NCBI GenBank assembly: GCA_950295325.1
Contig: OX485808.1
Span: forward strand, 10,602,501-10,666,500
DNA length: 64,000 nucleotides
Direction: 5' to 3'
Source of the DNA: Polytrichum commune
Lineage: Eukaryota > Streptophyta > Polytrichopsida > Polytrichales > Polytrichaceae
Both the position numbers and the translations under genes were made by a program. Positions 18,526-58,640 of this stretch are shown in pieces; position 1 is the first letter of the stretch, and every line of letters begins with the position of its first letter. The notes beneath the pieces are model-generated. The model was not told the DNA's origin. It made no database searches and saw only the letters and a list, made by a program, of their open reading frames with translations.

Positions 18526-19058
18526 AAGTGCAGTGCTGTCTTCGTGTTCTATTTAATTTCGATCTTGCATTGAAGGCACCAAACAAACAACCCACGAAAG
18601 CTCAATCAACGGAGGAACGGAATTGGGCACGGGCTTCAACTTCTGCCTGTTTTGTTGTAGGGTTCCGTCCGGTAGGCACCGAGGGCCGGTTTAGACTCCA
18701 GTGAAGAAGTGCACCAATCAAGATTTTTAAGGGAATGGAGCAATATGATTGGCTATGGATGTTCTGAGATGATCCACAGAACTGAACGGAAGACATCACT
18801 GAACATAAGTGCAGTGTTGTCTTCGCGTTCTATTTCATTTCGATCTTGCATTGAAGGCACCAAACAACCAACCCACGAAAGCTCAATCAACGGAGGAACA
18901 GAATTGGACACGGGCTTCAACTCCTGCCTGTTGTGTTGTAGGATTTCGTCCGGTAGGCACCGAGGGCCGGTTTAGACTCCAGTGAAGAAGTGCACCAATC
19001 ACGACTTTTAAGGGAATGGAGCAATATGATTGGCTATGGGTGTTCTGAGACGATCCTG
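18526..19058. repeat. Tandem duplication, period 281 bp
   Basis: Two units start at 18526 and 18807 (AAGTGCAGTGYTGTCTTCG); TTAGACTCC recurs at 18691 and 18972, so the period is 281 at both landmarks. A partial third unit (TTAGACTTTAGTGAAGAAG) starts at 19110. The second unit runs straight into a SINE head. On the minus strand each unit encodes a similar frame ending in a stop (PTTKQAEVEARAQFRSS), which could be a captured last exon; I cannot identify it. Confidence 0.8.
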
Positions 19059-28084: not shown

Positions 28085-28092
28085 ATTAGGAC

Positions 28093-29530
28093 CAGTGTAT
28101 ATGTTTGACAAAGTTTTTGCAAGTTTTTCTCTTTTGACACGCAAAAACTTGCACAAAAAAAAATGCACGTCAATTGACACGCACAACCTAGAAATTGACA
28201 CGTATTGTGACTTGTGAAGAAAAAAACCACACGTCAATTGACACACTAGAAATTGAAATGACACGTATTACTTGAGTACTATAAAGTGCAGCTCAAGTAT
28301 CCGGAAAACATAACCCATAACAGTAGGAGAACTTCCTACACTCACTCACATACTTAAGTTCAACTTTGCTCTTGCAATTTCCTTCGTAACCGGGAGCTAA
28401 GACAGTGATCGGAGAGCGAGACTAACTAGGAACATGGCGAGGCAAATGTTTGTATCACCGTGGTGCTTGCACATCCTCCACTCCATATGAGTTTTTTCTT
28501 GCTTCCAACCAATGTGAGTTTTTCTTGCTTTCAACCAAAGTTGTTTTGAGCAATTCCCTTTGAATCGCAAAGCTCCCTTGTTGAAAGCATCTGAATCCCT
28601 TTGAGCTTTCTTGGAGCTGGAGAGGCTTCTTATTGCAAAAATGACACAGAAGTGGCACAAAGATCAGCGCCTGCTTTCGGTTAGGATTGATTGTAGCGCA
28701 CTTTGTTCCAGAATGAATTGTTCTGTTGGGATAATTAACCTGTAATTATGAAGTTGTGATTGTGTGGTTGCTTTCCACTTCCCATGCCTCTTTGGAAACA
28801 CCTGGAACCAATTAATTCCCAACGATAATCAATATTCCTTCTTGTAACAACCTTTTGTTGGCCAACGCACTAGAAGTATTTCTATATTTTATAATTCCAA
28901 TTCAGAGACCTAGATCATACCTCACCAATTGAACAACTTTTTATTCTTTTTCTTTACCACTAAAGGATATAATATGCTTCAAGAGGATATTGGTTGATAT
29001 TGATTGTTCAGCAGATAGGTAGATAGATAAATAGATACATTCAACTAGAATCAAGCCAAGGATGGAGCATACATAATTGTGAGCCTTAGAGCCTCCGTAC
29101 TGAAGTGCAAGAGAGTCACCCATGTTGATCACTTTTGAGAGTTTTTGTCTGTTGCTTTTGGCGGAGAGATAGCAGAGTCTGGCTGTAGATTCAGAAGCAA
29201 AAAGTGGAGAAAGACGCCTAAATTCAAGGCTCCTGACTTCTTTTCTGTATGTCGTGCATTTCTCTCTAATCGTATTGCATAAGTGGAGAAACATGCGAGA
29301 CCGAAGGATACTTACGCTCGATTGATAGTTTTTTTTTGGTTACAAATCAAGTTTGTTTTTTATTATTCAAAATATTAGTTTTTTTTTATTGTGTAAGCCA
29401 AAAATTGAGGTGACATTTTGGAATAAAATGTAAATGTCAATTGACATTCATTTTTGTTTAAAAAAAATGTCACGTGACACTTTGGATTTGAGGTTGAACG
29501 TCACATGAAATTTGTCAAACATACACACTG
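28093..29530. mobile_element. hAT-type transposon (1438 bp) with captured host-gene exons
   Basis: Perfect 8-bp target duplications ATTAGGAC flank it (28085-28092 and 29531-29538). The terminal repeats CAGTGTATATGTTTGACAAA and (inverse) CAGTGTGTATGTTTGACAAA match at 19 of 20 positions. Subterminal regions carry many TGACAC/GTCAATTGAC words (about five in 28133-28268, more at 29435-29490), like transposase-binding repeats. No transposase is encoded. The centre instead holds two exons and the intron of a SAC-domain phosphatase gene on the minus strand (separate entry). The remaining interior, including minus frames at 28397-28660, is unidentified and may be further captured DNA. This is a Pack-type arrangement. 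Confidence 0.9.
28740..29132 (-). pseudogene. Captured fragment of a SAC-domain phosphoinositide phosphatase gene
   Basis: On the minus strand, 29132-29073 encodes 20 residues containing MGDSLALQYGGSKAHN, followed at 29072 by GTATGC, a plausible splice donor. After 271 bp, TTCCAG at about 28802 is a splice acceptor, and 28801-28740 encodes VFPKRHGKWKATTQSQ before another donor-like GGTTAATT. From what I know of plant SAC/FIG4-type phosphatases, GD(T/S)LALQYGGSAAHN is directly followed by VFSERRGQWKAATQSQ, so both exons, their order and the phase-0 junction agree. The catalytic CX5R exon is absent, and later residues diverge. It cannot encode an active enzyme. The family makes enzymes that dephosphorylate membrane phosphoinositides. 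Confidence 0.85.
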
Positions 29531-29538
29531 ATTAGGAC

Positions 29539-57019: not shown

Positions 57020-58640
57020 AAGGGGAATCCAAACACGCCAAACTTCAAACTCGTTGTGTTGGTGGATTGGTGGGTGATGTCACTCTGTTGAAAGATGCTC
57101 TTGGAAGGTTCAATAGAGGGGTCTGTGTCTAAACCTTGGCAAAGGAAGGTAGGAGTGTCCAATTCCGACACTAACCTAGTTATTATGACACCTATGTTTT
57201 TTTTTTTTTTGGGGGGGGGGGGTCCTGAACTGGGCTCCTACATGGTCATATTATTGTTTAGTCCCTTGGCGAGTGATCGAAACAAAATTTGGAATCCAAA
57301 CACGCCAGAGTTCCAACTTGTTTTTGGATTGGTGGGTGATGTCACTCTGTTGAAAGATGCTTTTGGAAGGTTCAATAGAGAGGTGTGTGTGTGTGTGTGT
57401 GTGTGTCTAAACCTTAGCGAAGGAAGGTAGGAGTGTCCGATTCCGACACTGACCCAATTATGACACCTATGTGTTTTTTTTCTTAATCCCAAACTGGGCT
57501 CCCACATGGTCATAATATTGTTTAGTCCCTCGGCGAGTGATCAAAACAAAATTGGAATCCAAACACGCCATAGTTCAAACTTGTTTTTGGATTGGTGGGT
57601 GGATGTCCTTTTGTCCAAAGATGCTCTTGGAAGGTCCAATAGTGAGATGTGTGTCTAAACCTTAGTGCAGGAAGGTAGGAGTGTCCAATTCCGACACTGA
57701 ACCAATTATGACACCTATGTTTTTTTTGTTTTTGTTTTTGTTTTTTGTCCCAAAGCGGGCTCCCGCATGATCATAATATTGTTCAGTCCCTTGACAAGTG
57801 ATCGAAAAAATAAAAAATGGAATTCAAATACGCCAAAGTTCACACTTGCTTATTTGGATTGGTGATGTCACTCTATCCAAAGATGCTCTTGTAAGGTTCA
57901 ATAAAGAAGTGTGTGTCTAAACCTTAGCGAAGTAAGGTAGGAATGTCCAGTTTTGACACTGACCCAATTATGACACCTATGTTTTTTTTAATTCGTTTAT
58001 TTTAAAAAATTAGGGTCCCAAAGCAGGCTCCCACATGGTCATGATATTGTTTAGTCCCTTGGTGAGTGATCAAAACAAAATTGGAATCCAAACACGCCAA
58101 AGTTCAAACTCGTTTTTTGGATTGGTGTGTGACTCGCCACATCACTATGTGCAAGGATGCTCTTGTAAGAGGTATGCAAAAAATCTTGGCAATGTCAGGT
58201 AGAAGTGTCCAATTCTGACACTACCCAATTATGAGACCTTTGTTTATATTTCATAGTATGTCTCAAAGTAGATTCTCTATGTAATTGTGATATTGTTTAG
58301 TCCCTTGACAAGTGATCCTTTTGAGTTTGGGGTTTGGGGTATAGGGTTGAAAATAAATTGGAATTTCAAGTCATGAAGTTCATACTCGAGTTTGGATCGG
58401 ATTGGTAGTAACACTCTGTCCAAAAGTGCTCTTGTAGGCTTTGAAGAGGTATGCAAACATGGGCGGTGTAAGTAAATAGATGTATCCAATTCCATAAATA
58501 TGACACTTGTACTTTCTTTGTCCCAAAGTAGGGTGCTACATATTCATAACATAATTTAGTCTCTTTGCAAGTAATCCTTTTGAGTCCAAGGGTTCGGCTA
58601 CAAGATGGTCTCATTTGGGATTCACAACCAAAGTCTCTCA
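57020..58640. repeat. Tandem repeat array, six units of about 265 bp
   Basis: The unit landmark GGAATCCAAACACGCC (variants) falls at 57024, 57291, 57554, 57819, 58083 and 58360, so successive periods are 267, 263, 265, 264 and 277. Within each unit the order is GGAATCCAAACACGCC, GATTGGTG, AAGATGCTCTTGGAAGG, GTCTAAACCTT, GTGTCCAATTCCGACACT, TATGACACCTATGT, a T tract, GGGCTCC(T/C)ACATGGTCAT and TTTAGTCCC. Divergence grows toward the right. A (GT)n run (57380-57403) expands one unit, and a T13-G12 tract another (57199-57222). Confidence 0.88.

Follow-up and report, generated by a model that had tools for sequence, protein, structure and literature searches.

Exon–intron–exon capture by hAT transposons is already known from maize, where two Ds2 and nine Ds-l4 elements carry gene sequences and Ds2-22 contains exons 5 and 6 plus the intervening intron of an ILR1-like gene; the mechanism of acquisition is stated, in the available text, to be not known (Du et al. 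2011, PMC3260210). Pack-hATs have also been reported in rice and maize (Gisby and Catoni 2022, PMC8903248), hAT transduplication has been described in grapevine (Benjak et al. 2008, PMC2528002), and, of the animal Pack-TIRs examined elsewhere, 190 (67.6%) showed microhomology at a minimum of one breakpoint (PMC8277862). A 2026 review treats Pack-TYPE capture, and a search of the accessible portion for hAT as a whole word found none (PMC13317346). Among the literature matches listed, none was by title on SAC-gene capture, and the 8 listed out of 38 in one search did not mention phosphoinositide phosphatases.

Here, we describe a hAT element of the moss Polytrichum commune that, as far as the available text of the maize study goes, is a further example of such capture. 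Like Ds2-22 and the Ds-like elements, it is a hAT element holding two exons and an intron from another chromosome, taken up at the DNA level. However, the maize cases are described as individual elements, with no pre-capture site in the available text, whereas the moss fragment occurs at 75 or more loci, and its donor, SAC-free sequence and coding carriers are found in one genome (PMC3260210). With the Pack-hATs and other Pack-TYPE elements of rice and maize it has in common terminal inverted repeats (TIRs) enclosing host-gene DNA, 8-bp target-site duplications (TSDs) and large hAT clusters; the model given there, in the text at hand, is fusion of neighbours, whereas the junctions here fit microhomology-guided template switching into a leader (PMC8903248). 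Grapevine Hatvine-6 is similar in that transposase sequence and TIRs are common to its members, whose variable regions correspond to exons and introns of genes, and differs in the genes concerned and in that the accessible text describes no breakpoint-level pre-capture site (PMC2528002). Finally, animal Pack-TIRs, including hAT-N8_XT, resemble the moss case in breakpoint microhomology, template-switch models and multicopy hAT elements with distinct TSDs, yet they come from animals and, in the excerpts at hand, their multicopy cases are few (3/23 in western clawed frogs; PMC8277862).

The element and its surroundings

The window analysed is a stretch of 64,000 nucleotides (contig OX485808.1, positions 10,602,501 to 10,666,500). 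A sequence-only reading had proposed a hAT-type transposon at 28093–29530 of this window, and on our reading of the sequence the hAT element there is 1438 bp long. The perfect 8-bp TSDs of that reading are present as ATTAGGAC at 28085–28092 and, identically, at 29531–29538. Its matching 20-bp ends are likewise borne out, the left TIR CAGTGTATATGTTTGACAAA (28093–28112, plus strand; pattern search) and the reverse complement of the right one (29511–29530, minus strand) agreeing at 19/20 bases. When up to three mismatches are tolerated, the TIR pattern matches the window only twice, at the two outer ends of this copy; shuffled sequences gave a mean of 0.01 matches, and none of 100 shuffles reached two. 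Dense subterminal TGACAC words had been described as well. This holds for the left end only: five of the seven words, at 28135–28264, lie in the left subterminal region (28113–28282, plus strand; word count), the others start at 28642 and 29475, and the reverse word GTGTCA is absent. When the flanks of the window copy are joined, they align unbroken to C2:22069627-22069770 at 73% (query 55–199, spanning the junction at 150/151), and judged by this alignment the C2 stretch is a paralogous empty site of the window copy.

From left to right on the plus strand, the interior begins with a TATAAAG at 28280–28286, a putative promoter of the transposase leader within a region that aligns to the 5′ end of transposase-coding relatives. 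The hAT 5′ leader common to coding elements follows at 28283–28519; it matches the 3952-bp relative L048 and is also found in L085–L088, and positions 1–427 of the consensus of the short size class, to which the window copy belongs, are 98.4% identical to L048. Leader segments P4 and P1 (28520–28753), from about 28615 on related to a repeat array on contig C4, lead up to the captured SAC segment of 374 bp (28754–29127, minus strand), which has TTG at both ends in plus-strand reading. Beyond it lie leader segment P3 (29128–29283) and, recognized by comparison with longer relatives, the last 13 codons and stop of a hAT transposase (WRNMRDRRILTLD*, 29284–29325), all that the window copy keeps of this gene. 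The right subterminal region (29326–29510) matches the 3′ end of L048, to which short-class consensus positions 1193–1439 are 97.2% identical.

Across the window, tRNA and Rfam scans were empty. The window has 12 listed stop-to-stop frames with a length of 110 aa or more; Pfam was run on 10, leaving aside the frame inside the element and 57092–57430, and recognized no family in them. Two tandem repeats were seen, one at 18526–19056 (unit 281 bp, 1.9 copies, 94% matches) and one at 57395–58245 (unit 262 bp, about 3 copies).

A family of transposed copies

Across the 407.8 Mb of genome searched, the TIR pattern with at most one mismatch occurs at 918 sites (477 + 441), and a reversed control gave 0. 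Among TIR sites read from the first 100 of these 918 places, 16 pairs (L048–L063) each carry a perfect 8-bp TSD and enclose interiors of 317–328, 928–949, 1526, 1612, 1855, 2991, 3710 and 3952 bp, so the element ends do recur with other interiors, as the sequence-only reading had required; a 17th pair, L064, has no TSD at the fetched ends. In a non-random set of 20 loci, made up of the first TIR sites listed on C1, a script located a right end in 15/20 cases. The smallest class, a MITE class of 317–328 bp (L058–L063, on C1 and C2), has in common the TIRs and ends of about 175 and 127 bp that are 82–94% alike, with a perfect 8-bp TSD in all six copies read. A 2991-bp sister, L050 (C1:53107086-53110076), has similar TIRs and no SAC piece; its ends and part of its transposase show a likeness of about 84%, and for about 1.4 kb of the interior no match turned up among the references tried.

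Scoring 40 out of 1232 first-look candidates gave at least 55 matches to the window element. The 40 loci scoring best against the window copy comprise 33 complete copies, six incomplete ones and one without the searched core. The complete copies fall into a short class of about 1440 bp (22 copies), a mid class of about 1722 bp (8) and a long class of about 2163 bp (3), the high share of the 1440-bp class being biased because loci were chosen by best score against the window copy. TSDs are perfect in 23 of these copies, carry one mismatch in seven and are lacking in three, and 28 different TSD sequences occur among the 30 copies that have one. L002 and L012 have the same TSD in different flanks. 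L014 and L016 (C3:31959889-31978705), about 16–17 kb apart in opposite orientation, show no base differences and also agree in the TSD and in the 12 flank bases beyond it on either side; they are probably one insertion copied with its surroundings in a local inverted duplication.

In a tree of the copies, a single branch sets each size class apart from the rest. The window copy has 2.4% differences from the consensus of its own class. Only 1–3 bases in about 1440 separate some copies that lie on different contigs and have different TSDs, so movement was recent. The SAC junctions themselves can be traced genome-wide: with at most two mismatches, the left junction occurs at 73 places and the right one at 57, with controls at 0; for 55 of the left junctions a right one lies no more than 1 kb away, and both junctions together mark 75 loci, all three counts (73, 57 and 75) being lower bounds. 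Because the copies have the same SAC junctions, they derive from a single capture, after which the family transposed many times.

The captured SAC piece and its donor gene

All parts of the proposed coding content, namely two minus-strand peptides and a GT...AG intron of 271 bp, are present at 28754–29127. On the minus strand, a partial exon A of 55 bp, (N)MGDSLALQYGGSKAHNY (29073–29127), is followed by the 271-bp intron (28802–29072; 787 bp in the donor) and a partial exon B of 48 bp, VFPKRHGKWKATTQSQ (28754–28801). The extent of 28740–29132 given by the sequence-only reading has to be narrowed: comparison with the donor gene places both ends within exons, leaving 28754–29127 with both exons partial. 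Its statement that the two peptides are contiguous stands for order and phase and needs one amendment, a single residue (Y) between AHN and VFP.

Searching the genome with a plant SAC segment turned up two SAC genes, on C1 and C7. The C1 gene matches the element at 90.6% over 287 bp and 93.3% over 89 bp (C1:68247633-68248522), and both peptides fall there, with order and phase as had been predicted, in neighbouring exons of a single SAC gene; the C7 paralogue gives a single 23-bp match. The donor exons read ...MDMYHNMGDSLALQYGGSEAHNY / VFPERQGKWKATTQSQEFLKSIRRYY..., and the element copy starts inside the first and stops inside the second. DNA-level capture, also part of the earlier proposal, is borne out: the element matches the donor in its DNA, intron included, and retains 271 bp of this intron between its two partial exons. 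When joined, the donor exon peptides match the Pfam family PF02383 Syja_N (6.1e-79, residues 108–403, ending before the captured part), and their best PDB match, Fig4 7k1w (1.5e-39), spans the captured part. Plant SAC1–SAC5 are placed in a Fig4-like clade in the text at hand (PMC8717918). By these homologies, the donor is a FIG4-type SAC phosphoinositide phosphatase gene that is still present on contig C1.

The captured fragment starts C-terminal to the loop RTNCIDCLDRTN, which lies outside it and which we take to be the catalytic loop of SAC phosphatases. With this loop upstream of the captured part, the fragment cannot be a phosphatase, and nothing in its sequence indicates a functional protein. 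The short-class consensus peptide equals the donor in 34/34 residues, and the mid- and long-class consensus peptides differ from it; the K2P distances between donor and class consensus are 0.045 (short), 0.063 (mid) and 0.066 (long).

About 516 bp of the donor intron (C1:68247681-68248467; L033) have no counterpart in the element and consist of diverged repeats of a unit that is also in the element intron, together with a telomere-like TTTAGGG stretch. Growth of the donor intron after capture was considered and is less likely, the other donor repeat units being 76–86% alike to the element's unit. Since these units have diverged beyond the donor–short distance of 0.045, it is more likely, if short of proof, that the donor intron did not grow and that the element lost or skipped this DNA.

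The site of capture

Three SAC-free loci on C4 (L090–L092) read through an uninterrupted TTG-ATCACC at the position where the elements carry the SAC piece. L090 reads CTGAAG-TTG-ATCACC, and L091 and L092, with one base missing, read CTGAA-TTG-ATCACC; a pattern search for the exact L090 junction, allowing at most three mismatches, found L090 alone. Measured at L090, the C4 sequence is 86–88% alike to the flanks of the SAC piece. Since the donor is closer to the element than the C4 relatives are, these look ancestral rather than excised, and the SAC-free sequence looks like the pre-capture state. L090 (C4:2562000-2563000) is part of a tandem array of diverged leader-like units, which may be a relic hAT leader or another repeat.

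TTG stands at each end of the stretch that was copied from the donor, and microhomology at the junctions amounts to 3 bp on the left (TTG) and 4 bp on the right (GTTG). In 200,000 trials, random placements gave 3- and 4-bp matches at both ends at a frequency of 0.00185.

The C4 repeats also bear on the rest of the interior, for which the sequence-only reading had suggested the same or another gene as source; P4 aside, hAT leader, transposase tail and C4-array-related sequence are found there instead. In the C4 repeats, P1 directly adjoins P3. A second host gene as the source of both was examined and rejected, given that 51 of 54 P3 matches have a SAC junction within 1 kb and that the other three are the C4 loci themselves. 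For P4 (about 28520–28693), 22 of 94 matches lack a SAC junction within 1 kb. The six of these 22 that were read comprise L052 and L053, in which the SAC piece is deleted or nearly so, two places in the C4 array and two about 2.5 kb from the L089 junction on C6, and P4 could conceivably have a host-gene source.

Transposase-coding relatives

The assignment to the hAT type rests on the 8-bp TSDs, on the short TIRs with their 918 genomic sites and on the longer sister copies: the consensus of the 1722-bp class, which holds a C-terminal transposase piece, matches PF05699 Dimer_Tnp_hAT with 25.2 bits (cut-off 21.4). The TSD preference consensus of hAT elements is nTnnnnAn, and T at position 2 (17/28) and A at position 7 (14/28) occur here as a preference, not a rule.

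L048, flanked twice by the TSD GTTGGGGT, has a broken transposase whose N-terminal frame matches the zinc-finger family PF25431. A search with this frame gave 13 full-length matches with at least 83% identity, five of which have 745-aa open frames, one with a stop counted inside the matched stretch. A SAC left junction lies upstream of five of the 13 near-complete transposase N-termini, three of them read (L048, L085, L089) and two, C6:19046341 and C7:24965721, placed by pattern position alone. The frames of these five SAC-bearing loci measure 179, 179, 212, 228 and 319 aa, against 426–745 aa at the other eight, three of which were read (L086–L088) and five assigned by having no junction pattern nearby; this contrast (1/1287) was noticed after the fact, with two split loci of 681-aa frames excluded.

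The SAC piece is antisense to the reading direction of leader and transposase. L048 and L085 have a SAC remnant between the TIR-bearing left end and the transposase start, and L089 (C6), alone among the coding carriers read, has a complete SAC fragment plus P3 upstream of the transposase N-terminus; the 1481 bp fetched at L089 show no left TIR, and their first 547 bp match nothing in the family. L086–L088, by comparison, have 745-aa frames and no SAC, P1 or P3, so the recipient leader is without an intact representative. Among further relatives, L053 and L054 lack SAC, and L052 (1612 bp) keeps about 12 bp of it. Since coding relatives carry the SAC piece antisense upstream of their transposase start, capture probably took place in a coding element, and the window copy looks like a deletion derivative that keeps 13 transposase codons.

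Mode of capture

The features of Pack-hATs and Pack-TYPE elements are found here: a host-gene fragment lies within a non-autonomous TIR element, its donor is elsewhere, and the fragment was mobilized with the element. It is very probable that the window element is a non-autonomous, multi-copy Pack-hAT whose SAC piece came from C1, captured in a leader by template switching and followed by later deletions. The recipient was probably the 5′ leader of a transposase-coding hAT element whose DNA was being repaired or replicated, and short microhomology, TTG on one side and GTTG on the other, probably guided the switch. The polymerase would have copied C1:68247633-68248522, with about 516 bp of the intron either skipped then or lost later. 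Internal deletions of SAC-bearing coding elements would then have produced classes of about 1080, 1440, 1722, 1855 and 2163 bp and the 1612-bp copy, different SAC or leader points being joined to different transposase points to give L051, L052, L053, L054 and L066 as well as the three main classes. The 1440-bp class, including the window copy, may have been moved in trans by transposase from SAC-free members with 745-codon frames.

Fusion of two neighbouring hAT insertions that are mobilized with the DNA between them, as proposed for Pack-CACTA and Pack-TYPE elements, is a published model that, in the text at hand, includes hAT (PMC8903248), and the TIR family is abundant enough for neighbouring insertions to arise. 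Yet such a fusion would leave terminal hAT sequence beside the captured DNA and would not split a leader unit, whereas the leader-like sequence around the SAC piece runs on without a break in SAC-free relatives, both ends of the piece show short microhomology, and the TIR pattern, at up to three mismatches, is confined to the two outer ends of the window copy. We consider this route very unlikely. Slightly likelier, though still unlikely, is the insertion of filler DNA at a staggered break with a 3-bp TTG duplication and no template switching: the pre-capture relatives have a single TTG where the insert has one on either side, but the donor has TTG at both copied ends, which a target duplication does not require, and the rarity of chance matches at both ends (0.00185) also speaks against it. 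That the likeness to SAC arose by chance or convergence, or that the element is an ordinary gene's intron region, has a negligible probability. The 33-residue element peptide alone has no SAC match in Pfam or PDB (one PDB row is titin, E 0.052), but at the DNA level a SAC gene within this genome gives a long match that includes the intron, and many TSD-flanked copies exist.

Retention and possible effects

Another reading is that the fragment is kept for a function, be it leader-driven antisense SAC RNA or small RNAs acting on the donor, or splicing into a chimeric protein. The SAC piece is antisense to leader and transposase; 32 of the 33 complete copies have at least one perfect 21-mer in common with the donor exons (30 in the window copy), 31 of the 33 keep GT...AG, and the short-class consensus differs from the donor at 0/103 exonic and 16/265 intronic positions (Fisher P 0.008). 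However, this exon–intron contrast is confined to the short class (5/103 and 17/265 in the mid class, 4 and 19 in the long class), and selection on the donor gene itself would give the same contrast. Moreover, the mid-class consensus peptide has a stop, and by eye the 34 codons are interrupted by a stop or frameshift in 14 of the 33 copies. Pairwise divergence among the 22 short copies is 3.8% and 2.6% in the two exon pieces, 2.9% in the intron and 2.6–4.7% in other parts, which gives no sign of constraint after the spread. Retention for function hence appears improbable, while a small-RNA or antisense effect on the donor gene is possible.

A related idea concerns the coding elements. Transposase transcripts of the SAC-bearing lineage would carry antisense SAC, since the piece lies antisense upstream of the transposase start and downstream of the possible TATA; that they did so and thereby linked transposon activity to silencing of the phosphatase gene is quite unlikely. 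If true, antisense SAC would perhaps explain the decay of all five SAC-bearing coding loci as against the longer SAC-free frames.

Significance

The unusual value of this case is that the donor, the SAC-free capture point, the coding carriers and the amplified deletion derivatives survive in one genome. One hAT capture can thereby be followed base by base: its junctions have microhomology of 3 and 4 bp, its intron was kept but shortened, and one event was followed by many transpositions. The case speaks for a template switch within a coding element rather than for fusion of neighbours.
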